From Marinibacterium profundimaris (GTDB lineage: Bacteria > Pseudomonadota > Alphaproteobacteria > Rhodobacterales > Rhodobacteraceae), in contig NZ_AQQR01000003.1 of NCBI RefSeq assembly GCF_002210095.1, forward strand, positions 124,001-188,000: a stretch of DNA of 64,000 nucleotides, given 5' to 3'. Of the stretch, positions 41,316 to 64,000 are shown piece by piece (position 1 is the stretch's first letter; every line of letters starts with the position of its first letter). The notes below the pieces were generated by a model, which saw only the letters and a program-made list of their open reading frames with translations, was not told where the DNA came from and searched no databases. The translations under genes were made by a program, and so were the position numbers.

Positions 41316-41942
41316 CTATTTTCCCAGTTCACCGAGAATTATCTGCGCCACGGCAAAAGCGCGCTTTTCCAGCAGGACCGGGCTTTCGCAGACATATGTG
41401 ATCGACCTCTGCCGGTCCTGGTAGATCCGCGTGTCCCAATAGATTTCGTCTTCCAGCGCCTCGAAGGCGTCCCAGGCGTCGTTGTCGTCGGTCTCTTCCG
41501 CCACGGCCTCCAGCTCCCGCGCCCTTTCGCGCTTGGCATCGATCTGCTGCGACAGGCCGCGATGTTTCTCGGCAAAGCGGCTGATGCCCCCGATGATCTT
41601 GTAACGCTCGGTGTCGATCTCCTGGAACACCCCGGCAAAGAGACGGGTCAGCCGCTCGTCGCGGCTTTCGGTCTCGGTGGGCCCAATATCTGCCACCAGC
41701 GGCGCCACCTCCTCCAGCGGCACGCCGCGTGCGGTCAGCAGCGGCACCAGTTCGGCCAGCGTCTCGTCCTGGCGCCAGCGCGGCGTCTCGGGCAGGGCCG
41801 GGCCGGTCCACATCTGGCCCCAGGACAGATGTTCCACCTTGCGCTGCACGCAGGGCCAGTTCTCGTCGCCGAAGGCCGCAGCCGCGCCCGGCAAGAGCGT
41901 CAGGGCCGCCAGAAGTGCCCATACCTTGGTCGTGCCTGTCAT
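41316..41942 (-). CDS. Exported hypothetical protein, helical
   Basis: A 208-residue protein with a signal peptide (KVWALLAALTLLPGAAAAFG) and one Cys just after it (ENWPCVQRKVEHLSWGQMW). The body is helical and acidic, with an apparent four-helix region in which EKHRGLSQQIDAKRERARELEAVAEE looks like a coiled coil. A late Cys (ITYVCESP) may pair with the first. No family recognised. It faces the pentapeptide-repeat gene and lies at the left edge of the methanol locus, so it may belong to it. Confidence 0.7.
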   Translation of the reverse strand: MTGTTKVWALLAALTLLPGAAAAFGDENWPCVQRKVEHLSWGQMWTGPALPETPRWRQDETLAELVPLLTARGVPLEEVAPLVADIGPTETESRDERLTRLFAGVFQEIDTERYKIIGGISRFAEKHRGLSQQIDAKRERARELEAVAEETDDNDAWDAFEALEDEIYWDTRIYQDRQRSITYVCESPVLLEKRAFAVAQIILGELGK

Positions 41943-42032
41943 CTTCGTGATCCTCCCATATCCTCTTGTACGCTATGCTACGGAGCGGTCTCGTCCCGCC
42001 GACGGGGAATGACCCCATATCGGAGCAGCGCC

Positions 42033-42806
42033 ATGCGGTTCATCTTAATCCTCTGCCTCTCCATGGCTCTCGCCGGACCGGGCCGGGCGCAATCGCCGCT
42101 CGACGGGGTCGACCTGCAAAGCCCCGCGATGACCGAGGCGAAGCTGACCCGCGACGAGGTGATCGAGAGGCTCTCTGCCGACCATCCCGATTTCACGCAG
42201 GAGTGGATGAACGGGCTCGACCTCTCGGGGCTGGATTTCACCGGCGCCACCCTGCGCGCCGCGCGGCTGAACCACGCCAACCTCAGCGGCGCCATCCTCG
42301 ACAAGGCCGAGCTGAGCCAGGCCTGGCTGATGGAGGCCGACCTGACCGGCGCCTCGTTGCGCGAGGCCACGCTGTTCCAGACCCAGCTGACCGGCGCGAC
42401 GCTTCGCGGCGCCAATCTCACCGGCGCGCGACTGGCCTGCGATTTCACCGGGGCCGACCTGCGCGAGGCCAAGTTCGACCTCGCCGATTTCTCGGCCGAC
42501 ATGAAGAACCAGTCCATGGGGCTGATGCGCGGCGTGCTCAACCATGCCGAGGCTGACGGCGCCAGCTTTCGCGGCGCGCAGCTGATGCGGGCCGACATGG
42601 AATTCGCCTCGCTCAAGGGCGCCGACCTGACCGGGGCGGATCTGGCCATGGCCACGCTGGGCGGCGCCGACCTGACCGGCGCGCGGGTGGCAGGCGCCGA
42701 TTTCCAAAATGCCGATGTCACCTCGGCCCGGCTGATCGGCCTCGACGGGCTCGCCGACGGACAGCTGGACACCGCCCGCAACCTCGACCGCGCGTTTCGC
42801 GACTGA
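42033..42806 (+). CDS. Exported pentapeptide-repeat protein
   Basis: A 257-residue protein with a signal peptide (MRFILILCLSMALAGPGRAQ) and then about 25 pentapeptide repeats of the A(D/N)Lxx kind (LDFTGATLRAARLNHANLSGAILDKAEL and so on), which would form a right-handed square beta-helix in the periplasm. ATG 42033 is preceded by CGGAG. It is divergent from the helical exported protein and convergent with the ABC permease gene (four bases apart). Its role in this locus is not known. Confidence 0.85.
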   Translation: MRFILILCLSMALAGPGRAQSPLDGVDLQSPAMTEAKLTRDEVIERLSADHPDFTQEWMNGLDLSGLDFTGATLRAARLNHANLSGAILDKAELSQAWLMEADLTGASLREATLFQTQLTGATLRGANLTGARLACDFTGADLREAKFDLADFSADMKNQSMGLMRGVLNHAEADGASFRGAQLMRADMEFASLKGADLTGADLAMATLGGADLTGARVAGADFQNADVTSARLIGLDGLADGQLDTARNLDRAFRD

Positions 42807-42810
42807 CCCG

Positions 42811-43602
42811 TCATCGCCGCGCCGCCATCAGCCCGCGCGACGGGTTGTAGGCCCAAAGGGCCGCGCCCAGGAACAGCGCGCCGCAGCCCAGGACGACGGC
42901 CAGCGCCAGCCAGTTGACCTGCAGATACAGCGCGAAGCGGATCAGCTCCACGCAATGGGTGAACGGGTTCAGCTGCGCGATCTGATAGAGCAGCACCGAC
43001 CCCTCGCGCACCCTCCACAGCGGGTAAAGCGCGGACGACGCAAAGAACATCGGGAAGATGACGAAGTTCATCACCCCCGCGAAATTCTCCAGCTGCTTCA
43101 CGGCGGACGAGATGAAGAGCCCGATCGCCCCCAGCACTAGCCCCGACAGCACCAGCGCCGGCACCGCCGCAAGATAGCCCAGCCAGGGCGGGTCCACGCC
43201 CCAGATCCGCGCGATCAGCAGGAAGGTATAGACCTGCAGCAGCGACACCAGCACGGACGCGAACAGCTTCGTCGTCAGCAGGAAGCCCCGGGGATAGGGG
43301 CTGACCAGCAGGGTCCGCATCGCGCCGGTTTCCCGGTCGTAGACCATCGACAGCGACGATTGCATCCCGTTGAACAGCTGGATCATCCCGCAGAGCCCCG
43401 GCACCACGTAGACCTCGTAATGCACATAGGTTTCGTAGGGCGGCGTGATCGACAGGCCCAGCACCGCCCGGAACCCGGCGGCAAAGATGAAAAGCCAGAC
43501 CAGCGGACGGACCAGCGCCGCGAAAAACCGTTCCTTCTGCTGGAAGAACCGCAGCATCTCGCGCCAGAAGATACCGCGCGCGCAGATCCACCAGCCGCTC
43601 AT
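42811..43602 (-). CDS. ABC-2 type permease of PQQ-dehydrogenase-linked transporter (LutF/PedC-like)
   Basis: A 263-residue membrane protein with six hydrophobic segments and the ABC-2 pattern (RGIFWREMLRFFQQKERFFAAL at the N-terminus; the conserved MVYDRETGAMRTLLVSPYP coupling loop; NFVIFPMFFASSALYPLW). It overlaps the ATPase gene by four bases. In lutABCDEF of Methylorubrum and pedABC of Pseudomonas, homologous permeases are the membrane part of systems needed for lanthanide uptake or use; here the similar operon order beside xoxF suggests the same. The symbol is withheld because assignment is by context. Confidence 0.8.
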   Translation of the reverse strand: MSGWWICARGIFWREMLRFFQQKERFFAALVRPLVWLFIFAAGFRAVLGLSITPPYETYVHYEVYVVPGLCGMIQLFNGMQSSLSMVYDRETGAMRTLLVSPYPRGFLLTTKLFASVLVSLLQVYTFLLIARIWGVDPPWLGYLAAVPALVLSGLVLGAIGLFISSAVKQLENFAGVMNFVIFPMFFASSALYPLWRVREGSVLLYQIAQLNPFTHCVELIRFALYLQVNWLALAVVLGCGALFLGAALWAYNPSRGLMAARR

Positions 43603-44354
43603 GCCGCGTCGCCCCCGCGCTCGGCGGTCATCTCCAGGAACGCCTCCGACAGGCCCTGCGCCCCGGCGATCTCGGCCGCCGGTCCCCGGGCCAGAACGCG
43701 GCCCCGGTGCAGCACGACCACGGGGTCCTGGGGCCAGATCTCGTCGATCAGATGCGTGGTCCACAGCACGCCGACGCCCTCCTGCGCCGTCAGCCGGTGC
43801 ACGTCGGCCACGATATCGGCGCGGGATTTCACATCCAGCCCCACGGTCGCCTCGTCACACAGAAGCAGCGCAGGCGAATGCAGCAGCGCGCGCGCGATCT
43901 CGACCCGCCGCACCTGCCCGCCCGACAGCCGTCCGACCTTGTCGCCGGCGCGGTCGCCCATTCCGATCTTGTCCAGCAGCGCCTCCATCCTGGGCCGCAC
44001 CGCGCCCCAGGCGCGCCCGTGCAGGGCGCCCTGATAGCGGAAGTTCTGCGCCACGGTCAGCGAGGCATCCAGCGCCCGGCTCTGGAACACGACACCGGTG
44101 CGGGCCAGCGCCGCGCGGGCATCCCGTTCCACCGGGTGGCCGCAGATCGAAATCTCGCCCACCCGCGTCACGAACAGCCGGGTCACCAGGTTGAAAAGCG
44201 TCGACTTGCCCGCGCCGTTCACGCCCAGCAAGGCCACGAACCGCCCGCGCGGCACCCGAAGCGACACGTCGTCCAGCGCCACGCGCGTTCCGTAGGAATG
44301 GCTGACGCCCGCGACATCCAGCGCGGGCGCGGCGTCATGATCGGGCAAGTTCAC
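43599..44354 (-). CDS. ABC transporter ATP-binding protein, PQQ-dehydrogenase-linked (LutE/PedB-like)
   Basis: A 251-residue ABC ATPase: Walker A LGVNGAGKSTLF, signature LSGGQVRRVEIARALLHSP, Walker B LLLCDEATVGLD, and H-loop VLWTTHLIDE. The ARTGVVFQSRALDASLTVAQNF Q-loop region is of the ABC-2 exporter/nodulation type. The start is taken as GTG 44354, which overlaps the stop of the acidic protein (GTGA); TTG 44348, with AAGGAG upstream, is equally possible. It works with the permease just downstream and presumably with the binding protein at 46079. Confidence 0.85.
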   Translation of the reverse strand: MNLPDHDAAPALDVAGVSHSYGTRVALDDVSLRVPRGRFVALLGVNGAGKSTLFNLVTRLFVTRVGEISICGHPVERDARAALARTGVVFQSRALDASLTVAQNFRYQGALHGRAWGAVRPRMEALLDKIGMGDRAGDKVGRLSGGQVRRVEIARALLHSPALLLCDEATVGLDVKSRADIVADVHRLTAQEGVGVLWTTHLIDEIWPQDPVVVLHRGRVLARGPAAEIAGAQGLSEAFLEMTAERGGDAA

Positions 44355-44605
44355 TCCTTGCGCTTTTCCACCACCTCGAAGTCCTTCGACAGCTCGATGT
44401 CGTATTGCCCGTCCGAGCAGAAGACATCGTCCAGCTCGTAGCCGTCCGCCTCGACCTCGATGTCGTCGGGATCCATCTCGCATTCCATGTTGTCGAGAAT
44501 GTCGAGGATCGCCTCCATCTCCGCCTCGGTCGGGGCGTCGTCGGCAAAGACAGGGGCGGACAGACCGGCAGCCAGCGCGGCGGCCATCACGAGAACACGG
44601 GTCAT
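44351..44605 (-). CDS. Small acidic exported PepSY-like protein, candidate metal binder
   Basis: An 84-residue protein with a signal peptide ending SAPVFA. The mature 62 residues hold about 25 Asp or Glu, with an acidic helix DILDNMECEMDPDD and then IEVEADGYELDDVFCSDGQ and YDIELSKDFEVVEKRKE, the helix-hairpin pattern of half a PepSY domain, with two Cys that could bridge. The gene lies between the LutC-position protein and the ABC ATPase in the lut-like operon, overlapping both neighbours by four bases. Lanthanide-binding PepSY proteins (lanpepsy) are known in methylotrophs, so periplasmic lanthanide or calcium binding is a reasonable hypothesis, unproven. Confidence 0.8.
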   Translation of the reverse strand: MTRVLVMAAALAAGLSAPVFADDAPTEAEMEAILDILDNMECEMDPDDIEVEADGYELDDVFCSDGQYDIELSKDFEVVEKRKE

Positions 44606-45042
44606 TGGATCGAAATCTCCACTTTCTGGGTGTCGCCGGTGGACCCGGGAATCTTCAGTTCATAGCGCCCGGGCTTGATGGCAATGAAGGTAAACCGGAC
44701 CGTACCTTCTGCATCGAATTCGAAACTGTCCAGCGCCATCGGTCGGATCTCGAGGTCATTGATGACCACCTCGTTGATCCAGATCGCGCGGAAGAATTCC
44801 GGACCCACCAGCGCCAGCTCCTGCGATCCGTCGGCCTCGATATACATCGTGTAATAGGCGCCCGATTGCAGCGCCATCGGCGCCTCGGCCAGCGGCTTGC
44901 CGGCCGACAGCGTGACCTTCGGCAGCTCCTCGCGGTTGCACTTGGCCAGCAGCCCGGCAAAGCCGAAATCGTCGCACAGCGGCGCCGCGGCCAGGGGCCC
45001 GGCAAACAGGCCAAGGGCTGCGGCGGCAATCAGGTGTTTCAT
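44602..45042 (-). CDS. Exported hypothetical protein of the lut-like operon
   Basis: A 146-residue protein with a signal peptide (KHLIAAAALGLFAGPLAAA) and two Cys near the mature N-terminus (PLCDDFGFAGLLAKCNREELP). The rest is predicted beta strands, ending GRYELKIPGSTGDTQKVEISIQ, with a middle LEIRPMALDSFEFDAEGTVRFTFIAIKPG that recalls a cupredoxin or Ig-like sandwich, though no copper ligand set is evident. It overlaps the acidic protein gene by four bases and follows the beta-propeller gene by 66 bases. Position corresponds to one of the exported proteins of lut operons. Confidence 0.72.
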   Translation of the reverse strand: MKHLIAAAALGLFAGPLAAAPLCDDFGFAGLLAKCNREELPKVTLSAGKPLAEAPMALQSGAYYTMYIEADGSQELALVGPEFFRAIWINEVVINDLEIRPMALDSFEFDAEGTVRFTFIAIKPGRYELKIPGSTGDTQKVEISIQ

Positions 45043-45108: not shown

Positions 45109-46086
45109 TCAGTTCGGAGAGACGACGACGCCCCAGGGCAATTCGCCGACCTGCACCGATTTCACGACCTTGCGCGCCTCCACGTCGATGAAGGACACGT
45201 CGTTGGAATTGCCGTTGGTCGAGATGATGTATTTCTCGTCCGGCGTGAACCCCAGCTGCCAGACCCGCTGTCCCACCAGCAGGTAATCCACCACCTCGTC
45301 CGTCTCGCCGTCGATCACCGCCACCCGGTTCGAGGGGCCGAGCGCGACGAAGACGGTCTTGCCGTCGCGCGTCACCCGCACGCCCACCGGCTGCAGCGCC
45401 TCGGGCACGATGCCGGGCACCTCGAAGGTGATCTTCTTCATGATGTCGCCGGTCGCGGGGTCGATCACGCTGACGGTGCCGCCGATCTCGGCCGAGACAT
45501 AAAGCTTCGATCCGTCTTCGGTGAACTGGGCAAAGCGCGGGCGGCTGTCGACCAGCGTGTTGATGTCCAGCTCATAGGTCTCGGTATTGATGAAATGGGC
45601 CATATTCGTCGTCTCGGACGTGTTGACCACGTATTTCCCGTCCGGAGACACGCCCATGCCCTCGGGCTCCACCCCCACCGGGATCTCGGCCAGAACGCGC
45701 CTGGTCTCGACATCGACGACGGTGACGATGTTGTCGTCCTCGTTGGCGATGTACAGCGGGTTGCCCGACGGGTGCAGCACGAACAATTCCGGGTCCGGCC
45801 CCGAGGGCAGCGTGTGCAGCAGCTCCATCGTCGTGGGGTCATAGACCTCCACCGTGTCGTCGTCCGAGGCGCACAGGTACAGCTCATGCCCCGAAGGCGA
45901 GATGGTGATGCCGCGCGGCCGCTGGCCGGTCTCCACGGTGCGGATCACTTCCATCGTCTCGGTGTCGATAAGCGTGACGGAATTGCCCTTCTCGTTGCTG
46001 ACATAGGCGGTGTAGGCCATGGCCTGGCCCGCCAGAAGCGCAGCGGTTGCGGTCGCGGCCAGGAACTTTGTCATCGGCTTAATCAT
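45109..46086 (-). CDS. YVTN-type beta-propeller protein, PQQ-linked
   Basis: A 325-residue periplasmic protein with a signal peptide (FLAATATAALLAGQAMA) and seven beta-propeller blades of the YVTN type, for example AYVSNEKGNSVTLIDTETMEVIRTVETGQRPRGITISPSG and LYVSAEIGGTVSVIDPATGDIM. It belongs to the kind of propeller protein encoded with PQQ-dependent alcohol dehydrogenase ABC systems. ATG 46086 has CGGAG about ten bases upstream and overlaps the end of the binding-protein gene; ATG 46074 also gives a signal peptide. In lut operons this is the second gene. Confidence 0.87.
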   Translation of the reverse strand: MIKPMTKFLAATATAALLAGQAMAYTAYVSNEKGNSVTLIDTETMEVIRTVETGQRPRGITISPSGHELYLCASDDDTVEVYDPTTMELLHTLPSGPDPELFVLHPSGNPLYIANEDDNIVTVVDVETRRVLAEIPVGVEPEGMGVSPDGKYVVNTSETTNMAHFINTETYELDINTLVDSRPRFAQFTEDGSKLYVSAEIGGTVSVIDPATGDIMKKITFEVPGIVPEALQPVGVRVTRDGKTVFVALGPSNRVAVIDGETDEVVDYLLVGQRVWQLGFTPDEKYIISTNGNSNDVSFIDVEARKVVKSVQVGELPWGVVVSPN

Positions 46087-47269
46087 CAAGGGAACACTCC
46101 GTTTCGGGTTCGTCGTAGCCCAGCGTGTCCAGCTGGGATGTCTGGTGCAGGAATTCCTCCTGCGGCGAGACCGAGACCACCAGCGGACCATCGGCCAGCA
46201 GGATCCCCTGCCGCAACTGCTGGTTCCAGGGCCGGAAGCTAAGGGGCAGGCCCTTGAAGCCGGGGATCTCGAACTCGTCCGAGCGGAGGTAGGCGCGGAT
46301 CGTCTGCGGATCGGCGCTTTCGGTGCGGGTCACCCCCTCGCCCACGATGCGCACGGCCAGCCAGGCGAGGTAGTCGCGCCCCGACATGTAGCGGTTCGCG
46401 TGTTTCTCGAACCGGGTCTGCAACTGCGTGCCGCCCCAGCCTTCGGATCCGGGATGCCAGTCGCGCACCCTGAGCCCGGCATCGCCCGCGACGGGACGCG
46501 GATCCCAGGTGCGGTACGGCAGGTACAGCCCGAAGACCTCGTTTTCATCCGCCGCGATCACCACGTCGTGACGCCTGGCGTTCTGGGTAAAGACCGGCAT
46601 CTGCCGCTGCACCAGCACGTGGCCGCTGTCGCTGCGCCGCGCGCCGCCGGTGTCTTCATAGACCCGTTCCTCGACGATATCGGCGCCGAACCTGCCCGCC
46701 GCCCGCCGGTATGCCTCGGCCATGGCGATGTCCTCGGGGTGGGACCCATGGATCAGCAGCCAGCGGTCCCATTTCTTCCAGACCAGGTACTGCGCCAGCG
46801 CATCCGCCTTCATCGCCCGGCTGGGAATGACGTGAAACAGGTTTGCCTCGCACCCCGACAGGCGCAGCGCGTCATCCTCGGCGCCGATGTTCAGCACCAG
46901 CGCCTCGGGAACCGCCGCCGCGATCTCCTCCAGCAGCGCGGCCTTTGCATCGATGGCGAAAAACCCCACGCCCCCGGCCCGTGCCGCCTCAACCGCCGCC
47001 ACGGCCTCCTCCGGCGTGGGCGTCAGCACCTCCAGCGCATAGGTATGGCCCAGGAACCGCCCGGTCGTCGCATTGTCCGCCAACCCCACCTCGGCCCCGG
47101 CGATGCCGTCGTTCTCCGCAGGCTCCTCCAGCCGGGTCAGCGGCAGCGGCGCCGCGTCCTGCACCAGGACCAGCCCCACCCGGGCCTCCACCACCTCGGC
47201 CAGCGCGACACCCGCCCAGCCCAGCCCGGCCAGCGCCACGCAGGCGGCGCGAACAATGGTGTTCCGCAT
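46079..47269 (-). CDS. ABC transporter substrate-binding protein, PQQ-dehydrogenase-linked (LutA/PedA-like)
   Basis: A 396-residue periplasmic binding protein (signal peptide RAACVALAGLGWAGVALA) of the branched-chain-amino-acid-like fold: VGLVLVQDAAPLPLTRLEEPAENDGIAGAEVGLADNATTGRFLGH, LVLNIGAEDDALR, LLIHGSHPEDIAMAEAYRRAAGRFGADIV. It matches the PQQ-dependent alcohol dehydrogenase ABC binding family. It starts the minus-strand operon of six genes. In P. putida and Methylorubrum, homologues take part in lanthanide transport; a lanthanide or chelate ligand is inferred, not seen. Confidence 0.86.
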   Translation of the reverse strand: MRNTIVRAACVALAGLGWAGVALAEVVEARVGLVLVQDAAPLPLTRLEEPAENDGIAGAEVGLADNATTGRFLGHTYALEVLTPTPEEAVAAVEAARAGGVGFFAIDAKAALLEEIAAAVPEALVLNIGAEDDALRLSGCEANLFHVIPSRAMKADALAQYLVWKKWDRWLLIHGSHPEDIAMAEAYRRAAGRFGADIVEERVYEDTGGARRSDSGHVLVQRQMPVFTQNARRHDVVIAADENEVFGLYLPYRTWDPRPVAGDAGLRVRDWHPGSEGWGGTQLQTRFEKHANRYMSGRDYLAWLAVRIVGEGVTRTESADPQTIRAYLRSDEFEIPGFKGLPLSFRPWNQQLRQGILLADGPLVVSVSPQEEFLHQTSQLDTLGYDEPETECSLDD

Positions 47270-47519
47270 GGTCCTCCCCCCTTGCGTCCCGTCGCGCGGC
47301 ACCTCCCCCGGGTCCGGCCCGGGCGCGCACCACGCCTCCTCTCGAACCGATGAAGCCGCCGCGCACGCCCCGCGTCAAGCCGCCGCCCTCCGCCCTGCCC
47401 GCGCCTTCTCACAATCTGAGAGCGCACCCCCGACCTTGGTCGGATTTTCTTGTCACCGCAGGATCTTGGCCCATTTCTGTGCCAAGGTAGGATACCCCGG
47501 CCATTCGCAGGAGGAGAGG

Positions 47520-48032
47520 ATGCGCCCGATGACCAGTCCACCGACATTGCCCCGGGCCCTGGCCGCCCTGCTGGCCCTGCTCTGCCTGGCGGCCCTGCCC
47601 GCCCGGGCCGAAGATCCGCAATCGGTCGCCTTCTTCGGCATCACCCTGCTCAACACCAGCATGGAACCGGTGACCGAAGCGGAAGCCGCGCGCCTGCAGG
47701 CCGCCGAGGCGCAGATCGTCGAGACCATGACCGAGAGCGGCCGCTTCACCTTCGTCGACACAGCACCCATCGCGGAAGAGGCCGACCGCTACACCAACCT
47801 CGCGCAATGCAACGGCTGCGACAGCGCCTTCGCACAGGACCTCGGCGCCGATCTCGCCATGTCCGGCGAGTTCCAGAAGACCTCCAACCTGATCCTTTCC
47901 TTCACCCTCTACCTGCGCGACGCCGAAACGGGTAACCTCGTCGGCGGAGGCTCCGCCGACATCCGCGGCAATACCGACGACAGCTGGCACCGCGGCGTCC
48001 GCTACATCCTCAGAAACAGGATCTTGAAATGA
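47520..48032 (+). CDS. Exported DUF2380-like protein
   Basis: A 170-residue protein with a signal peptide (LAALLALLCLAALPARAE) that looks like DUF2380 family members: VAFFGITLLNTSMEPVTEAEAARL, ERFTFVDTAPI-like sequence (here GRFTFVDTAPI), a CNGCDSAFAQDLGADLAMSGEFQK region with two Cys, and LILSFTLYLRDAETGNLVGGGSADIRGNTDDSWHRG. ATG 47520 has AGGAGGAGAGG upstream. It overlaps the binding protein gene by four bases and starts a plus-strand operon with an ABC transporter, divergent from the lut-like operon. Function unknown. Confidence 0.78.
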   Translation: MRPMTSPPTLPRALAALLALLCLAALPARAEDPQSVAFFGITLLNTSMEPVTEAEAARLQAAEAQIVETMTESGRFTFVDTAPIAEEADRYTNLAQCNGCDSAFAQDLGADLAMSGEFQKTSNLILSFTLYLRDAETGNLVGGGSADIRGNTDDSWHRGVRYILRNRILK

Positions 48033-49003
48033 AACGCTTTCTGCTCTCCGCCGTCACCAGCCTCGGGCTCGCGCTTCCGGCCGCGGCCGAGGACCTGCCG
48101 AGCCTGCGCATCGCCGTGCTGAAGTTCGGCACCGTGAACTGGCTGATGGAAACGATCACCTCGAACGGCTTCGACACCGAAAACGGCTTCACCCTCGACA
48201 CCGTCCCGCTCGCCGGCGGCGCTGCCACCTCCGTGGCGTTCCAGTCCGGCGACGTGGACATGATCGTCGACGACTGGGTCTGGGCGCTTTATCAGCGCGA
48301 CCACGGCGTGCCGATCGAATTCGTCCCCTATTCCAACACCCTGGGCGCGCTGATGGCGCGGCCCGGCATCACCACGATCTGCGACCTGAAGGGCAAGAAG
48401 ATCGGCGTGGTCGGCGGCGAAACCGACAAGAGCTGGATCATCCTGCAGGCGCTCGCCACCCGCGACTGCGGCTTCGACATCACCCAGGAGGCCGAGATCC
48501 TCTTCGGCGCACCGCCCCTGATGTCGCAACAGCTGGAATCGGGCGCGGTCGACGCGGTCTCCACCTACTGGCACTTCGCGGCCAAGCTTCAGGCCGTCGG
48601 CATGCCGAAACTGGTCGGCGTGCACGACGCGATGGTCGAACTGGGGATCGACCCGCCGCCGCCGATGATCGGTTTCGTCTGGAACGACGACCGCACCGAC
48701 AGCGACCTTGTCGCCGCGATGATGCGCGCCGCCGAAGCCGGGCGCGCCGCGCTGGCCGAGGATGCCGCCTGGGACGCCCTGCGCCCGATGATGCGCGTCT
48801 CCTCGGACGAGGAATTCGTGGCCCTGCGCGATGCCTTCCAGGCCGGTCGCCCCGGCCCCTGGACCAAGGCCAACACCGACGCGGCGCACAAGCTCTACGA
48901 CCTGCTGACCGAACTTGGCGGCGAAGGCTTCAAGGCCGAGGCCGGGCCCTTCACGCCCGAGATCTTCAACGATCCCACGGCCGCCTCGCCGAATGCCGGC
49001 TGA
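48029..49003 (+). CDS. ABC transporter substrate-binding protein (NitT/TauT-like)
   Basis: A 324-residue periplasmic binding protein, signal peptide RFLLSAVTSLGLALPAAA. The mature start LRIAVLKFGTVNWLMETITSNGF, GGAATSVAFQSGDVDMIVDDWVWALYQRD and ITTICDLKGKKIGVVGG are typical of the NitT/TauT (SsuA/ThiY-type) family, whose members bind nitrate, sulfonates, bicarbonate or pyrimidines. It is expressed with a permease and ATPase. Located inside the methanol locus, its ligand could be a chelate, a C1 compound or a cofactor precursor; this is open. Confidence 0.85.
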   Translation: MKRFLLSAVTSLGLALPAAAEDLPSLRIAVLKFGTVNWLMETITSNGFDTENGFTLDTVPLAGGAATSVAFQSGDVDMIVDDWVWALYQRDHGVPIEFVPYSNTLGALMARPGITTICDLKGKKIGVVGGETDKSWIILQALATRDCGFDITQEAEILFGAPPLMSQQLESGAVDAVSTYWHFAAKLQAVGMPKLVGVHDAMVELGIDPPPPMIGFVWNDDRTDSDLVAAMMRAAEAGRAALAEDAAWDALRPMMRVSSDEEFVALRDAFQAGRPGPWTKANTDAAHKLYDLLTELGGEGFKAEAGPFTPEIFNDPTAASPNAG

Positions 49004-49772
49004 CATCCTGACGGGTCGGGCACGGGGGGGCCGGGCACGGGGGGCCGCCTGGCCCCTCTTTTCGCTTGCGCTGCTGATGGCGGTCTGGACCCTAGCCTCG
49101 GCCCTGATCCAGTCCGACCTGCTGCCCAGCCCCCTCGCCGTCTGGGAGGCGTTCCAGCGCGAGTTGCGCCTGGGCTATATAGAGGACATGGCCGCCACGC
49201 TGGGCCGCGTCGCCGCCGCCTTCCTGCTGGCCATGACCATCGGCTCGGCCATCGGCATCTGGCTGGGCACGACACCGGCGGCCGACCGGCTGCTGTGGTC
49301 CTGGGTGATCTTCTTCCTCAATGTCCCGGCGCTGGTCACCATCGTGCTCTGCTACGTCTGGTTCGGCCTGACCGAGGCCGCCGCCGTCACCGCCGTGGCG
49401 CTCAACAAGATCCCCAATGTCGCGGCCACCCTGCGCGAAGGCGCGCGGTCGCTCTCGACCGACCTCGCCGAGATGGCCCAGCTTTATGAGCTTCCCCGCA
49501 GCGCCCGGCTGCGCCACGTGATCCTGCCCCAACTTGCCCCGTTCTTCGCCGCCGCCGCCCGCAACGGGCTGGCTCTGGTCTGGAAGATCGTGCTGGTGGT
49601 CGAACTTCTGGGCCGCCCCAACGGCGTGGGGTTCGAAATCCACTCGCAGTTCCAGCTGTTCGACGTGGCCGGGATCTTTGCCTATGCGCTGGGCTTCATC
49701 GTGATCGTTCAGGCCATCGAATGGCTGATCCTGGCGCCCTGGGAAACCGCCACGCGCCGGTGGCGCCGATGA
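48993..49772 (+). CDS. ABC transporter permease (NitT/TauT-like)
   Basis: A 259-residue membrane protein with about six helices and the SsuC/TauC pattern: SDLLPSPLAVWEAFQ, the membrane-permease loop EGARSLSTDLAEMAQLYELPRSARLRHVILPQLAPFF with EAA-like spacing, and LALVWKIVLVVELLG. ATG 48993 overlaps the binding-protein gene by 11 bases, which implies coupling. A second possible start slightly upstream would lie within that gene. Confidence 0.87.
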   Translation: MPADILTGRARGGRARGAAWPLFSLALLMAVWTLASALIQSDLLPSPLAVWEAFQRELRLGYIEDMAATLGRVAAAFLLAMTIGSAIGIWLGTTPAADRLLWSWVIFFLNVPALVTIVLCYVWFGLTEAAAVTAVALNKIPNVAATLREGARSLSTDLAEMAQLYELPRSARLRHVILPQLAPFFAAAARNGLALVWKIVLVVELLGRPNGVGFEIHSQFQLFDVAGIFAYALGFIVIVQAIEWLILAPWETATRRWRR

Positions 49773-50446
49773 CAGGCCTGACCATCGACCTGCGCGGCAA
49801 GTCCTTCTCGGGCACGCCCGTGCTTGGCCCGCTGTCCTTCACGCTTGCCCCCGGCGAACGCGCCTGCCTGCTGGGCCCCTCCGGCATCGGCAAAAGTACG
49901 CTGCTGTCGCTGATCGCCGGGTTCGACCGCGCCTATGACGGCACGATCGCCCTGCCTCCGGGCCGGATCGCCATGGTGTTCCAGGCGCCCCGGTTGCTGC
50001 CCTGGCGCACGCTGGCGCAGAACATCGCGCTGATCCCCGGGGCCGGAGACCTCTCCCGCGCGCGCGCCCTTCTGGCCGAGGCCGGCCTCGCCGATGCGGC
50101 GGACCAGTATCCCGAAAAGGTCTCTCTCGGCATGCAGCGGCGCGCGGCCCTCTGCCGTGCCCTGGCGGTCTCGCCCGCGCTGATCCTGCTCGACGAACCG
50201 CTGGTCTCGCTCGATCCCGCCTCGACCGAGCAGATGCGCGCCCTCCTGCGCCGGACCCTCGACCTGACCGGCGCCACGGCGCTGCTGACCACCCATGACC
50301 GGCGCGAGGCGCTGGCCCTGACCGACCGCATCCTGGAAATCGACGGCCGCCCCGCGACGCTGCGCCACGACCGCCCCTCGCCGCTTTCGCGCGACGACAG
50401 GCTGGATCCCCAGCGCGTCGAGACCGCCTATCGCGAGATGTTCTGA
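49769..50446 (+). CDS. ABC transporter ATP-binding protein (NitT/TauT-like)
   Basis: A 225-residue ATPase with Walker A LLGPSGIGKSTLLSLIAGF, Q-loop VFQAPRLLPWRTLAQN, a degenerate signature VSLGMQRRAALCRAL instead of LSGGQ, Walker B ILLDEPLVSLDP and H-loop LTTHDRREAL. The altered signature is seen in some members of this group. It starts at the ATGA overlap with the permease. Its 3' end overlaps the convergent methyltransferase gene by 19 bases. Confidence 0.87.
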   Translation: MTGLTIDLRGKSFSGTPVLGPLSFTLAPGERACLLGPSGIGKSTLLSLIAGFDRAYDGTIALPPGRIAMVFQAPRLLPWRTLAQNIALIPGAGDLSRARALLAEAGLADAADQYPEKVSLGMQRRAALCRALAVSPALILLDEPLVSLDPASTEQMRALLRRTLDLTGATALLTTHDRREALALTDRILEIDGRPATLRHDRPSPLSRDDRLDPQRVETAYREMF

Positions 50447-51519: not shown

Positions 51520-52062
51520 TCACGGCGCCCAGGGCTGCATCCGCTCCAGCGGCAACCCTTCGGCCGCCCATCCGTCCAGCCCTTCGGGAAACCAATAGAC
51601 CGCCGTATAGCCCAACTCCTCAACCGCCCGTTTCGCGGCATTCCAGGACATCCAGCAGTTGGCCTGGCAGAAGAACAGCACCGGCGCCTCCGGGTCCCCG
51701 CCCGTCACCGCCGCCAGCCCGTCCTCCAGATAGGCCCGCCGATCCTCCGGCAGGAGCCCATGGCCCGTGTTGGGCAGCCAGACCGCGCCCGGCACCGTCT
51801 CGCGCGGCTTGTCGATCCACAGCGTGCCCTCGGGCAGGTTGTCCGGTTTCGGTGGGCGCGGAAAGACATCGACGAAGGCTGTCTCGCCATCCTCCCAGAG
51901 GCTGCGGGCCTGCGCGGCATCGACCACCGTCGCACCCGACAGCGTGTCGGGCACCGGCGCGCGGTAGGCCTCGGTCCGGTAGCCCGCGGGCTCGGGCACG
52001 CCGCCGGCCTGGCAGGCCGGGGCGGCGATCAAAAGCGCGACAAGGACGGCCTCAATCCGCAC
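51520..52062 (-). CDS. PQQ-dependent catabolism-associated CW-motif protein (rhodanese-like)
   Basis: A 180-residue periplasmic protein (signal peptide RIEAVLVALLIAAPACQA, with a Cys that might be lipidated) with rhodanese-like features: VVDAAQARSLWEDGETAFVDVFP and a C-terminal LFFCQANCWMSWNAAKRAVEELGYTAVYWFPEG, in which a Cys pair and CW are the family's mark. It is encoded in many PQQ-dehydrogenase loci and may act in disulfide or sulfur transfer. The stop is directly next to an 18-base palindrome. The start codon overlaps the XoxJ-like gene. Confidence 0.87.
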   Translation of the reverse strand: MRIEAVLVALLIAAPACQAGGVPEPAGYRTEAYRAPVPDTLSGATVVDAAQARSLWEDGETAFVDVFPRPPKPDNLPEGTLWIDKPRETVPGAVWLPNTGHGLLPEDRRAYLEDGLAAVTGGDPEAPVLFFCQANCWMSWNAAKRAVEELGYTAVYWFPEGLDGWAAEGLPLERMQPWAP

Positions 52063-52894
52063 GACCGAACTCGTCGACCAAAGGCACGCCGTAGTCGGTC
52101 AGGATCGCGTCGATCTCGTCCTGGTTGCGGCGGATCAGCGAGTTCAGCTCGCGCTTCCAGGTCAGCTCGCCCTGCCGCACGCCCATGGTGATGCGGTAGA
52201 ACAGCCGCGGCGCACCCTCTTCCTTCAGAAGCGGCGTCACCACCAGGTCCATGTCCGACTGACCCGCGTACCAGCCCGCAAGCGGCCCCCAGAGCACGGC
52301 GGCATCGATCTCGCCCGCCTCCAGGTCGGCCATCATCAGCTCCACCGGGCTTTCGGCGCGGCGGTCGACCATCAGCTTGTAACCCCTGGCCTTGCCGATC
52401 AGCCCCTGCCGGGCCATGTGGGTGGCTGGCGGGCTGCCCGCTGTCACCCCGATCACCAGGTCCTGCAGCCGGGGATCGCCCAGGTGATCCACATCGGCCA
52501 GGTCACTGTCCGACGGCACCACGATCGCGTAGGCCGAGGTGTAGTAATGGTTGGTGTTCAGCACCAGCTCGTGCCCCTGGGCAAAGCCGATCACCACGTC
52601 GCAGCGCCCGCTGGCCAGGGTCTGGCGCACGAAGCCGGTGGCCTGCGGGAACCAGGTGTATTGCACCGGCCGGCCCAGCTTCTCCGCGAAGAGCGCGGCT
52701 ATGCGGTTCTCGAACCCCGTCTCCTCCTGGTTGGAAAACGGCGTGTTGGCGGGATCGGCGCAGACCCGGAAATAATCCTGCGACACCAGATCCGAGGTAT
52801 CCGTCTCGGCCCGCGCCACACCCGCGCCGGCACCGGCCAGGCAAAGCCCGGCCAGCGCCATCCGAAGGCCGCGTCTCAGGCTCAGCCCATGCAC
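52052..52894 (-). CDS. xoxJ: Quinoprotein-dehydrogenase-associated substrate-binding protein (MoxJ/XoxJ-like)
   Basis: A 280-residue periplasmic binding-protein-fold component of the XoxF system. Key stretches are FRVCADPANTPFSNQEETGFENRIAALFAEKLGR, TWFPQATGFVRQTLASGRCDVVIGFAQGHEL and VLWGPLAGWYAGQ. It is likely to bind or activate XoxF or its cytochrome rather than transport a solute. The start is taken as GTG 52894, which gives a signal peptide (MHGLSLRRGLRMALAGLCLAGAGAGVARA) and overlaps the cytochrome stop by 13 bases; ATG 52861 is the alternative. Confidence 0.87.
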   Translation of the reverse strand: MHGLSLRRGLRMALAGLCLAGAGAGVARAETDTSDLVSQDYFRVCADPANTPFSNQEETGFENRIAALFAEKLGRPVQYTWFPQATGFVRQTLASGRCDVVIGFAQGHELVLNTNHYYTSAYAIVVPSDSDLADVDHLGDPRLQDLVIGVTAGSPPATHMARQGLIGKARGYKLMVDRRAESPVELMMADLEAGEIDAAVLWGPLAGWYAGQSDMDLVVTPLLKEEGAPRLFYRITMGVRQGELTWKRELNSLIRRNQDEIDAILTDYGVPLVDEFGRAD

Positions 52895-53403
52895 GAATTC
52901 TCGTCCTCGGTGAAGCGGTCGGACTTGGGGTCCTTGCTGGGCGGACGTCCGCGCGGGATCGCGTCGGCGCCGCGCGCCTTGAGGTAGATATAGATGTCGT
53001 CCAGGTAGCACATGACGTTCTTGTTCAGCCCGAACGCCGGCATCACCTGGTTGTCCGCGGCGTCCACAACCTTGCGGCCCTCGACCACGACATAGACGAA
53101 ATCGTAGTAATCCATGTCGATCGCGCTGTCCTTCAGCGCCGGCGCATAGCTGGACCCTTCGCCGTCCGGCCCGTGGCAGACATGGCATTCCGCGTGGTAG
53201 CGGCGGAAGCCCGAGAAGGTGTACCAGTCGACCGTCCCGTCTTCCTTCACGTTGAAGGTGGGCACATCGTCCTCGGTGAAATATTTGCCGCCTTCCTCGT
53301 AGGCCGCGGTGATGTTGTCGACCTCGTTTTCCTGCGCGATGGCGGCGCCTGTGGCCAGAACAAGGGCCAGGCCGGCGGAGAGGGCGTGCGAGATGGGTTT
53401 CAT
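52882..53403 (-). CDS. xoxG: Four-cysteine c-type cytochrome, electron acceptor of XoxF (XoxG-like)
   Basis: A 173-residue periplasmic cytochrome c of the methanol-related four-Cys type. The signal peptide is ALSAGLALVLATGAAIA. CHVCHGPDGEG binds heme, NQVMPAFGL contains the presumed axial Met, and two extra Cys lie at VMCYLDDI and NSCMG, which may bridge and is typical of this group. It should accept electrons from XoxF. RBS AAAGGA precedes ATG 53403. Located between xoxF (197 bases upstream) and xoxJ. Confidence 0.88.
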   Translation of the reverse strand: MKPISHALSAGLALVLATGAAIAQENEVDNITAAYEEGGKYFTEDDVPTFNVKEDGTVDWYTFSGFRRYHAECHVCHGPDGEGSSYAPALKDSAIDMDYYDFVYVVVEGRKVVDAADNQVMPAFGLNKNVMCYLDDIYIYLKARGADAIPRGRPPSKDPKSDRFTEDENSCMG

Positions 53404-53600: not shown

Positions 53601-55400
53601 TCAGTCAGGCAGGGCGAAGACGGTCAACTGGCCGCCAAGAGCCGTGTAGCTGCTGAGGCCCGCGTAGCCGCCCACGGCGCCAAGGCCGTCGTTCGGGTTC
53701 ACAAGGCCCGCCGCCAGACCGATACCGGCCCAGCCGCCGATGCCGGAATAGACCGCCACGTACTGCTTGCCCCGATGGCTGTAGGTCATCACGTTGCCGA
53801 TGATGCCCGACGGCGTCTTGAAGCGATAGAGCTCCTCGCCGCTGGTCGCATCGACCGCCTTCAGGTAGCCTTCGAGCGTGCCGTAGAAGACAACGTCACC
53901 CGCGGTGGCCAGCGCGCCGGACCAGACCGAGAACTCCTCGGGCAGCGACCAGACGATCTCGCCGTTGATGTTGTCCCAGGCGATGAAGTTGCCCATGCCG
54001 CCGTGGCTGTTGGGCGCCGGGTACATCGCCAGCGTGGCGCCCACGTAGGGCTGACCGGCGGTGTAGGACACGCGGAACGGCTCATAGTCCATGCAGACGT
54101 GGTTGGTCGGCACGTAGAACAGTTCCGTCTTGGGCGAATAGGCCGCCGGCTGCTGGTCCTTGGTTCCCAGTGCCGCCGGGCAGATGCCGGTGGAGTTCAC
54201 GTCTTCGCCGTTCTGCTCGGTCGAATATTGCGCGACCACTTCTGGACGCCCGTAATTCTCCGAGTTCGGATCCATGTCGACGCCGGTGGTCCAGTTCACG
54301 ACCGGGTCGAACTTTTCGGCCACCAGCAGTTCGCCGGTTTCACGGTCGAGCGTATAGCCCAGGCCGTTGCGGTCGAAATGGGTGAGCAGCGGACGCATCT
54401 CGCCGTCGAATTCCTGATCCGTGAGGATCATCTCGTTGACGCCGTCATAGTCCCATTCGTCATGCGGGGTCATCTGATAGACCCACTTGGCCATGCCGTC
54501 ATCCGGATCGCGGGCCATGATGGTCATCGACCACTTGTTGTCGCCCGGGCGCTGCGCCGGGTTCCAGGTCGACGGGTTGCCGGTGCCGTAATAGACCAGG
54601 TCCAGCTCCGGATCGTAGGAGTACCAGCCCCAGGTCGCGCCGCCGCCGATCTTCCACTGATCGCCTTCCCAGGTCTTCAGCGAGCTGTCGGCGCCCACGG
54701 GCTTGCCCAGTTCCATGGTGTTTTCCGGATCGAACAGGATCTGGTCGTCCGGCCCCATGGAATAGGCGCGCCAGACCTGCTCACCGGTTTCCATGTCATA
54801 GGCGGTCATGTGCGATTGCACGCCGAATTCACCGCCCGAGATGCCCACCAGCACCTTGTCCTTCACCGGCAGGACGGTGGCGGTGTTGGTCTCGCCCTTG
54901 GACGGATCGCCGTTGACGACCGACCACTTGACCGCGCCGGTCTTGGCGTCCAGCGCCACGACGGTGGTGTCGGCCTGGTGCAGGAAGATCATGCCGTTGG
55001 CATAGGCCGGGCCGCGGTTCACCGTGTCACAGCACATGACCGGGATCACGTCCGGGTCCTGCTTGGGCTCATACTTCCAGATGATGCGGCCGTCCGCGTT
55101 CAGGTCCAGCGCATAGACCTTGTTGGGAAACGGGGTGTGGACATACATGATGTCACCCACCACCAGCGGGCCGCCTTCGTGGCCGCGCAGAACCCCTGTC
55201 GAGAAGCTCCAGGCCACCTGCAGATCACCCACGTTGTCGCGGTTGATCTGGCTGAGTTTCGAATAGCGCGTGTTGGCGTAATCGCCGGTCTGCAGCACCC
55301 AGTCATTCGGGTTCGACTGCAGCGACATTACACTGTCATTTGCAAGTGCCGCCCCGGACATCATGGTGCCGGCGAGCAGGCATGCGACAATCTTTTTCAT
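53601..55400 (-). CDS. xoxF: Lanthanide-dependent methanol dehydrogenase XoxF
   Basis: PQQ enzyme of 599 residues oxidising methanol (possibly other short alcohols) in the periplasm. It has a signal peptide ([19 protein letters not shown]), the adjacent Cys pair at 123-124 that closes a ring over PQQ, and propeller W-motifs. The metal site can be read: E191 (GGEFG), N275 (GTGNPS), D317 (DEWDYDG) and the extra D319 two residues later, which marks XoxF enzymes that need a lanthanide rather than calcium. The E191-N275 spacing (84) equals that of characterised XoxF. Downstream are the cytochrome and binding-protein genes. RBS GGGAGG precedes ATG 55400. Confidence 0.96.
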
Positions 55401-55607
55401 GGTTCCTCCCATTCAGATGCACGGGCCAGCGGCCAATCCTCCCTGGCGCGGGTCCGAGCGGGTCGTGGAGGGGTGATCGTGAAAAAGGCGCGTCCATCCA
55501 ATGACTTGGTGGAACCTTGATCATCCCCGTATACCGATGTGAACCGACACACGCCCTCGTTGCAACAGGGAATCTCAGAAACTAAGACTTAGGTAGGGAA
55601 GCGCTTG

Positions 55608-62516: not shown

Positions 62517-63173
62517 TCACTGAACGAGACGAAAGCCCTCTCCCCGGACGGTCTCGATCCGGATATCCTCGGACAATTCGGCCAGTTTCCGGCGCAGGTA
62601 GCCGACATAGACATCGACGGAATTGCCCGACACCTTGTCCTCCCCGCCCCAGGCGGCCGCCAGCAGATCCTCGCGGCGCACCGTCTCGCCCCGGTGGTCG
62701 ATCAGCGGCTGGGCCAGCGCCCATTCCCGCCGCGTCAGCGTCACCCGCCGCGCGCCAAGCGCCAGCACCCGCGCGCCGGCATCGCGCCGCAGCTCGGGCC
62801 GTTCGGGCGGGCCGCGACGGCCAAGCGCATGAAGCCGGGCCAGCAATTCGTCGAATTCGAAGGGCTTGACGAGGTAATCGTCGGCGCCGGCGTTGAACCC
62901 GCGCAGCTTGTCGTCCAGCGTGTCGCGCGCGGTCAGCATGCAGACCCGCGCCGGGTGGCCGAAGGTGCGCAGCGCGGCGCAAAGATCGGCGCCGTCGCCG
63001 TCGGGCAGCATCCGGTCCAGCACCACCAGGTCATGCGCCAGCCGCCCGACCTGCGCCACCGCGTCCTGCAGCGTGCGCTCCCAGTCGACGTCATAGCCCG
63101 CCTGCGCAAGCCCGCGTTCCAGCATCCGCGCGACACCCACGTCATCTTCGACCAGCAGAAGCCGCGTGCTCAT
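62517..63173 (-). CDS. OmpR-family response regulator
   Basis: A 218-residue regulator. The receiver domain has LLVEDDVGVARML with the acidic pocket, the phospho-Asp in VVLDRMLPDGDG, the Thr in MLTARDT and the Lys in YLVKPFEF. The winged-helix output domain begins about residue 130 and shows LTRREWALAQPLIDHRGETVRREDLLAAAW and SVDVYVGYLRRKLAE..IRIETVRGEGFRLV. The ATG overlaps the kinase gene stop by four bases. It may control the methanol locus, as MxbM-type regulators do in other methylotrophs, but only position suggests it. Confidence 0.93.
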   Translation of the reverse strand: MSTRLLLVEDDVGVARMLERGLAQAGYDVDWERTLQDAVAQVGRLAHDLVVLDRMLPDGDGADLCAALRTFGHPARVCMLTARDTLDDKLRGFNAGADDYLVKPFEFDELLARLHALGRRGPPERPELRRDAGARVLALGARRVTLTRREWALAQPLIDHRGETVRREDLLAAAWGGEDKVSGNSVDVYVGYLRRKLAELSEDIRIETVRGEGFRLVQ

Positions 63174-64000
63174 GACCCCTCCCCGCATGGCGTACTCCGG
63201 CATGGCTGGTCTCCGGCCCTGACAGGCCGGCTCCCGCTGTTGCGCATGGTGTCCTCCTCCAACCGGGCCTCCTCCGGACGCTCCCAGGCCAGGCGCACTT
63301 CGGCGCCGCTCCCGGCGCGGTTCGCGGCCTCGACCCGCGCGCCATGATGATCCGCGATCCAGCGCACGATGGCCAGCCCCAGACCGCTGCCCCCGCGCAA
63401 CCGGCCCGAGCCGCCCTGCACGTAACGATCGAAAAGCTCCATCGGGTCGCCCTCGCCAAAGCCCGGGCCCTGATCGCGCACCGACACGGCCCGCTCCGTC
63501 ACCTCCACGGTGATCACGTCACCGGGGCCCGAGAACTTGATCGCGTTGTCGATCAGCGCCAGCACCGCCTGCCGCAGGGCCGAGGCATCGCCGATCAGTT
63601 CCCGCTCGCCCGCGATCCGCAGCTCCAGCGACACCTCGCTCGCCGTGGCAAAGCCGCGGGCCTGATCAACCGCGCCGGTCACCGCATCCGACAGCTCGAA
63701 CGGGGCGCGGCCCAGCGTCAGCGTGCCATCCTCGGACCGCGCCAGCGACAGCAGGTCGTCCAGGCGCCGCCGCAGGAACCCGCCATTGGCCGAGATCCTC
63801 TCCAGCGCCGCGCGCTCGCCCGCCCCGGCCTTCAGCGCCACCTGCGCCTCGCCCAGCAGGACGGTGACCGGCGTGCGCAGCTCATGCGAGATATTGGCGA
63901 AGAAGGCGCGGCGGTCGCGGTCGATCCGCGTAAGTTCCGCATTGGCATTGGCCAGATCCGCCGTCGCCGCCTCGACCCGGGTGCGCAGGCGGTCCTGTTC
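63170..64000 (-). CDS. Sensor histidine kinase, C-terminal part (cut by window end)
   Basis: The open frame continues to the window edge; the 5' part (sensor and membrane segments) lies outside. Visible are a helical stretch, the H box FFANISHELRTPVTVLLGEAQ with the phospho-His, the N box AVLALIDNAIKFSG, G1 RDQGPGFG, the F box MELFDRYV and G2 RGGSGLGLAIVRW. The last 40 residues are not conserved. The stop overlaps the response regulator gene. Input signal unknown. Confidence 0.93.
   Translation of the reverse strand, partial: EQDRLRTRVEAATADLANANAELTRIDRDRRAFFANISHELRTPVTVLLGEAQVALKAGAGERAALERISANGGFLRRRLDDLLSLARSEDGTLTLGRAPFELSDAVTGAVDQARGFATASEVSLELRIAGERELIGDASALRQAVLALIDNAIKFSGPGDVITVEVTERAVSVRDQGPGFGEGDPMELFDRYVQGGSGRLRGGSGLGLAIVRWIADHHGARVEAANRAGSGAEVRLAWERPEEARLEEDTMRNSGSRPVRAGDQPCRSTPCGEGS

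Follow-up and report, generated by a model that had tools for sequence, protein, structure and literature searches.

A small acidic PepSY-type protein in the lutD slot of an alphaproteobacterial lut operon, a candidate lanthanide-handling partner of LutC

The gene at 44351..44605 on the minus strand of the window (the whole stretch of 64,000 nucleotides that was analysed) was characterised by sequence comparison and structure modelling. It encodes a protein of 84 aa with an ATG start. The sequence evidence strongly indicates that the gene is real and that its product is secreted, very acidic and built of a single PepSY domain whose two cysteines are invariant; it also indicates that the gene is paired with that of LutC and belongs to genomes with XoxF. 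The protein occupies the place in which lutD is found in other bacteria. By analogy with landiscernin (LanD), it is proposed with a probability of about one half that it is a PepSY-type stand-in for landiscernin and a periplasmic lanthanide-handling partner of LutC.

The gene and its operon

The gene order on the minus strand is lutABC-X-lutEF, where X is the gene of the PepSY protein. The LutA substrate-binding protein (46079..47302; TIGR03863), the LutB beta-propeller (45109..46191; TIGR03866), the LutE ABC ATPase (43599..44354, with a GTG start; TIGR03864) and the LutF ABC permease (42811..43764; TIGR03861) scored above their cut-offs, the true starts of LutB and LutF being probably inside the ORFs. 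LutC (44602..45042), also on the minus strand, is secreted, is predicted to fold like a cupredoxin and carries an N-terminal pair of Cys residues. A CXXCW protein (51520..52062; TIGR03865), labelled LutG by cluster context, a XoxJ/MoxJ-like binding protein (52052..53188; TIGR03871) and a XoxF-type PQQ methanol dehydrogenase (53601..55412; TIGR03075) were likewise above the cut-offs. These three are encoded 7 to 11 kb upstream on the same strand, past a plus-strand importer, and the XoxF gene is about 9 kb from the PepSY gene. The dehydrogenase has the WDYD motif, and this DYD form is taken by us to be the lanthanide type. The sequence-only reading had placed the small ORF in a lut-like operon, and the homologues of lutA, B, C, E and F in order, with the DYD-bearing XoxF nearby, are in accordance with it. 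The overlap with the operon neighbours was also confirmed, with 4 nt in common between the start of the PepSY gene and the LutC ORF and 4 nt between its stop and the LutE start at 44354.

Other genes around the operon were noted. The importer is of the SsuA/NMT1 type (binding protein, permease and ATPase; 48029-50446, plus strand) and is divergent from lutA. Its binding protein has a homologue encoded within about 0.7 kb after the PepSY gene in 39 of the 75 loci described below on the same strand, and in 2 on the opposite strand, so that the importer looks like a regular member of such lut/xox clusters. An apparently secreted DUF3280 (PF11684) protein is encoded within 47073-48032 (plus strand), between the importer and lutA, and a DUF3280 gene is annotated in the Mameliella lut cluster too. 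The apparently secreted protein of 208 aa at 41316-41942 (minus strand) resembles, by eye, the 'hypothetical protein' right after lutF in Paracoccus alcaliphilus; in the window its gene is separated from lutF by an ORF (plus strand, inside 41562-42806) whose repeats are pentapeptide-like. Response regulator and histidine-kinase-like ORFs are located at 62517-63841 (minus strand), about 7 kb upstream of xoxF.

The N-terminus of the PepSY protein is signal-peptide-like as judged by eye, leaving a mature form of about 63 aa (44354-44542) with the sequence DDAPTEAEMEAILDILDNMECEMDPDDIEVEADGYELDDVFCSDGQYDIELSKDFEVVEKRKE. Asp and Glu make up 25 and Lys and Arg 4 of the 63 mature residues, giving a pI of 4.05, a charge of about -21 and a mass of 7.2 kDa. 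The binomial p value of this acid count against a rate of 0.125 was 5e-8; the acid rate in the mechanical set of window ORFs, which includes some false ORFs, was 0.122. The earlier description of a secreted, very acidic small ORF with two cysteines was thus upheld, both Cys being present. Codon comparison with the homologous genes of three loci gave dN 0.11 and dS 1.16 (L065), dN 0.14 and dS 0.56 (L066) and, more weakly, dN 0.29 and dS 0.47 (L067), changes which are compatible with purifying selection.

Fold and conserved residues

The AF2 model of the protein, built with 76 sequences, had a pLDDT of 95.4 and a pTM of 0.80. It predicted a helix at mature residues 6-18 and strands at 28-31, 34-42, 45-52 and 57-62, of which the strands 34-42 and 45-52 agree with the 'VEADGYELDDVFCSDGQYDIEL' hairpin read from the sequence. 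The reading of this protein as half a PepSY domain was rejected, as the model shows a whole unit of one helix and four strands and the Pfam PepSY_2 (PF13670) match spans 2-80 of the 83 profile positions, signal region included. This match scored 17.6 bits for the window protein, below the cut-off of 24.3. The PepSY_2 model takes in the signal region, and no PepSY_2 match was obtained with the window protein in its mature form; because of this coverage the mature forms of eight relatives were rescanned, two being above the cut-off (24.6 and 24.4), three below it and three without a match. The same model matched 57 of the 76 family members with E values of 1 or less (3.5e-11 at best), and 7 of 15 plasmid homologues are annotated publicly as 'PepSY domain-containing protein'. 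The family matches together with the predicted whole PepSY-type domain support the suggested PepSY relationship and fold.

In the Foldseek search with the model, for which 50 of 154 rows were listed, no match had an E of 0.001 or lower (best 0.48). The top TM-score among them, 0.68 (probability 0.82, E 0.87), belonged to UipA (7ath), and a calcium-binding protein of Parabacteroides (3u1w) was a weak fold match (E 0.93). A match to a mite allergen (3h7t; phmmer E 0.005, profile E 0.17 and 0.23) was judged to be a chance one. The protein has no EF hand, unlike lanmodulin, which is characterised by EF hands in which position 2 is Pro. No such Pro was seen by eye in the four EF-hand frames of the window genome that were read (L202, L203, L204 and L207, out of six that also include those at C28 and C1:544537). 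One of them, L204 (G000:C1, about 422900-423150), encodes a small protein that looks secreted, has four loops resembling EF hands and comes near lanmodulin in size; it is possibly a calcium or metal binder of this genome.

Across the 76 aligned rows, C21, D39 and C42 (mature numbering) are invariant. Position 48 is D in 75 rows and E in 1, position 63 is E in 74 and D in 2, and position 27 is D in 49, N in 25 and E in 1; E36 and D38 are each found in 75 rows, E29 in 74 and D24 in 69. Conservation at positions 34-42 is partly by construction, since these positions were in the search pattern. The acidic residues are conserved in the orthologues beside xoxF; a lack of such conservation was what the sequence-only reading had named as evidence against its proposal. 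An outgroup of 11 PepSY_2 proteins outside lut loci was also aligned, 11 of 15 scanned loci having given a usable frame. These proteins share the domain and, in most of the 11, the E..DD....D acid pattern, as E36, D38, D39 and D48 recur in them. The notion that the conserved acids are lut-specific was therefore dropped, and the four residues are no argument for lanthanides specifically. The outgroup differs in the CEMDPxD loop, which by eye occurs in none of the 11 and in lut-type proteins only, and in the Cys pair, which is present in 2 and absent in 9. On this alignment, the loop is lut-specific and the Cys pair mostly so. C21 and C42 are present or missing as a pair in the outgroup, which fits a disulfide.

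Linkage to XoxF and to LutC

The protein query gave matches in 5 of 61 relatives, window genome included. Among 295 genomes of the family, 91 were above the permease cut-off, and 80 of these 91 were searched for both the PepSY protein and XoxF. The PepSY protein was matched in 25 genomes, two of them weakly (4e-7 and 2e-4), and XoxF in 34 at E up to 1e-100. Both proteins were found in 24 genomes, the PepSY protein only in 1, XoxF only in 10 and neither in 45, a strong co-occurrence with a Fisher p value of 1.7e-11 (3.7e-10 with the two weak matches counted as absent). The locus of the one genome with the PepSY protein only (G135, locus L228) carries a D-x-D dehydrogenase with 36% identity to XoxF. 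Five of the ten XoxF-only genomes have LutC and LutE back to back with nothing between them (L081, L223, L224, L225 and L227), and the other five (L226 and L229-L232) have a different arrangement with LutC or LutE not in place.

The first profile matched 8 of 385 genomes in a class-wide sample, strongly in the window genome only, and the second profile matched 13 of 349 genomes in a phylum-wide sample, all in the window's class, four of these matches having an E of 6.7e-30 or lower and one further match being of intermediate strength. A scan of named genomes, with the set drawn by the pattern G[YF][EL][LI][DQ]D[VA][FI]C, gave 75 loci, judged by record title to be mainly in Rhodobacterales and Rhizobiales/Hyphomicrobiales, with carriers including Sinorhizobium fredii and Roseovarius, Rhodovulum and Cereibacter species. 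A XoxF at an identity of 70% or higher was present in 71 of the 75 carrier genomes (39 in the locus itself, and 32 of the other 36 elsewhere), L152, L156, L158 and L175 being the carriers without it; LutB was found in 61 and LutA in 60 of the 75 loci. The XoxF-type enzymes tracked by the protein are of the DYD or DFD form. The PepSY gene is mostly missing from lut-type clusters that accompany other D-x-D dehydrogenases (10 such matches fell in PepSY-free loci, and 1 genome had the gene), so the protein is not needed for lanthanide use as such, and the proposal that it tracks lanthanide dependence in general was discarded.

LutC is encoded directly upstream of the PepSY gene in 74 of the 75 loci, with a gap of -4 to 135 nt (the exception is L107), and its predicted structure is cupredoxin-like (pLDDT 90; Foldseek E 3e-6 to cupredoxin domains). 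A LutC match was obtained in 102 of 135 loci, and its N-terminal Cys pair was found in 78 of 84 loci with the PepSY gene vs 1 of 18 without; with identical copies removed the counts were 72 of 76 vs 1 of 18 (Fisher 5e-14). This correlation is striking but confounded by lineage. A tree of 94 LutB rows requires at least 10 changes in the presence of the PepSY gene, 6 of these on supported branches. In the 5 supported independent pairs the LutC Cys pair went in the same direction in 3.9 on average and never in the opposite one; with five pairs the tree test cannot reach 0.05, and its direction is the same as that of the correlation. One genome (L156/L228) has LutC with the Cys pair together with the PepSY protein, and its LutB groups with clusters having neither. 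The LutC/PepSY pair occurs without LutA and LutB in 14 of the 75 loci within the stretches examined, some of which are short, and the two genes look like a cassette. As suggested earlier, the protein might serve the transporter as a ligand, but it is LutC rather than the ABC transporter that is constantly found next to it. It may also be, at somewhat less than even odds, that in Rhodobacterales and Rhizobiales this cassette handles lanthanides, that its single-PepSY protein took on the job of landiscernin independently and that the Cys pair of LutC comes and goes with the PepSY gene because the two proteins form a working complex.

The lutD slot and the proposed role

LutD has been reported as a Ln3+ binder (PMC9260416, PMC7391723, in the parts available), and landiscernin (PDB 9c8w-9c90) comes from M. 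extorquens (PMC12898644), in which lutD is dispensable (PMC7391723). From the slot it is concluded that LanD is the LutD of Methylorubrum extorquens AM1. In a genome of a Methylobacterium-type genus (G575) a match to landiscernin at 5e-19 was obtained with the gene that lies between LutC and LutE, and LanD has this position in all four genomes of the genus (G575 and three more). The PepSY protein therefore sits where LutD/LanD, a known lanthanide binder, is encoded elsewhere. The protein and its two profiles gave no match to landiscernin (9c8w/9c8x) up to E 10; homology to landiscernin was rejected on this result, as the Methylobacterium-type LanD was found at once. LanD was found in none of 51 carrier genomes (the window genome and 50 of 75 others) and in 1 of the 57 permease-positive genomes of the class sample. 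Since LanD and the PepSY protein share the slot without a sequence match, the slot holds two apparently unrelated small proteins. Both are small, secreted and encoded between lutC and lutE, whereas LanD reads helical by eye and would be all-helical, and the PepSY protein is predicted to have one helix and four strands. LanD reportedly dimerises and contacts lanmodulin (PNAS 2024), and the kind of role reportedly proposed for it is the retention, sorting or transfer of lanthanides. A 2025 study of Sinorhizobium and Bradyrhizobium, in the part concerned, lists homologues of lutA, B, E, F and G without C or D (PMC12628762); the missing lutD fits the absence of LanD there, and the S. fredii locus (L122) carries the PepSY protein.

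The PepSY protein discussed in the XoxF/lanthanide literature is, in the excerpts considered, lanpepsy (PMC12482762, PMC11845868, PMC12828617). This protein of Methylobacillus flagellatus (LanP) is likewise a periplasmic PepSY protein linked to methylotrophy, and its Glu/Asp sites bind lanthanides with a Kd of about 1 uM vs 14 uM for Ca (PMC11845868, PMC12828617). Compared by description only, lanpepsy has 19 kDa and two PepSY domains, whereas the window protein has one domain and about 7 kDa, roughly half of it in size. The hosts of lanpepsy are given as Methylobacillus and, in a methanotroph survey, Gammaproteobacteria; the window protein is alphaproteobacterial. UipA of Microbacterium shares the PepSY fold and has a negatively charged, metal-binding face, but it is a tandem PepSY, single-pass membrane protein concerned with uranium and iron (PMC8963506, in part). 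DbfQ of Vibrio cholerae is small and periplasmic with a single PepSY domain, like the window protein, but is encoded with a two-component system and acts on it (PMC12714742, in part). No description of a PepSY protein of the present type was found in searches of the open-licence literature on PepSY with XoxF or lanthanides, outside which the original LanD and lanpepsy papers lie, and titles on PepSY and methanol dehydrogenase in Rhodobacter showed none among the matches listed.

In the proposed mechanism the PepSY protein would be located in the periplasm, where its Cys pair may form a disulfide and its acidic sheet and CEMDPxD loop may bind Ln3+. Together with LutC, the cupredoxin-like protein, it would retain or sort lanthanides or pass them on along the route that links uptake at the outer membrane, XoxF and the LutAEF importer. 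The dispensability of lutD in M. extorquens and the ten XoxF genomes without the PepSY gene suggest that the protein is probably accessory rather than essential, like lutD in Methylorubrum.

Several other explanations were weighed against this reading. A chaperone that supplies Ca2+ or aids PQQ/metal loading in XoxF maturation, with no lanthanide preference, would fit the tight linkage to XoxF, the weak fold match to 3u1w and the binding of Ca by lanpepsy as well (PMC12828617, in part); the enzyme tracked is, however, of the lanthanide type (DYD or DFD) and the equivalent LanD in the slot is a lanthanide binder, and the chaperone is considered unlikely. Slightly less credit still is given to a general PepSY accessory or regulator, docking in the DbfQ-DbfS style on the periplasmic sensor domain of a histidine kinase which controls xox/lut, with metal, if bound at all, as the signal or incidental. 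An enrichment of PepSY proteins in the neighbourhood of two-component systems has been reported (PMC12714742, in part). Records of Paracoccus, Mameliella and Haematobacter have a HAMP kinase and a response regulator after lutEF, and in 12 of the 75 loci a match to the Paracoccus kinase/regulator or to the window regulator was found no more than 5 kb away (13 of 78 when the Paracoccus record and two more are included). Yet the nearest two-component match in the window is about 18 kb off, beyond the DbfQ-type proximity of about four genes, the constant neighbour is LutC (74 of 75) and not a kinase, and a regulator leaves the extreme acidity of the protein unexplained.

Copper or general metal handling, in which LutC and the PepSY protein form a periplasmic module resembling CopC plus PepSY and recruited to several metal systems, is improbable. 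The match of the LutC model to cupredoxin domains is in its favour, as is a close PepSY homologue encoded after CopC/CopD and YcnI genes on two Sinorhizobium plasmids (L238:8914-9171 and L242:4914-5171), where the PepSY protein is of the typical lut type and no lut genes are annotated in the parts read; however, of the five plasmid loci opened (H1, H4, H5, H7 and H14, of 15), three are lut clusters and two have the copper context, and XoxF is present in 71 of the 75 carrier genomes. A protease inhibitor or propeptide-like domain without a metal role, as classically suggested for PepSY domains (cited by PMC12714742, in part), is very improbable, given the acidity and the xox/lut linkage and with no protease-like gene among the operon genes scanned. 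The lanthanide-handling role is itself weakened by the Sinorhizobium CopC/CopD context, by the two-component genes after lutEF and by the acid pattern shared with non-lut PepSY proteins.

The question addressed by the stand-in for landiscernin is how lanthanides are sorted and transferred in the periplasm, where LanD is rare in the class sampled. Two unrelated proteins may be filling the job of one slot, and a second unrelated small protein in the lutD slot allows a direct test of what the slot does. The analysis names LutC as the candidate partner of the PepSY protein, and the protein itself would be a candidate of 63 residues, probably disulfide-stabilised, for the binding of rare earths.
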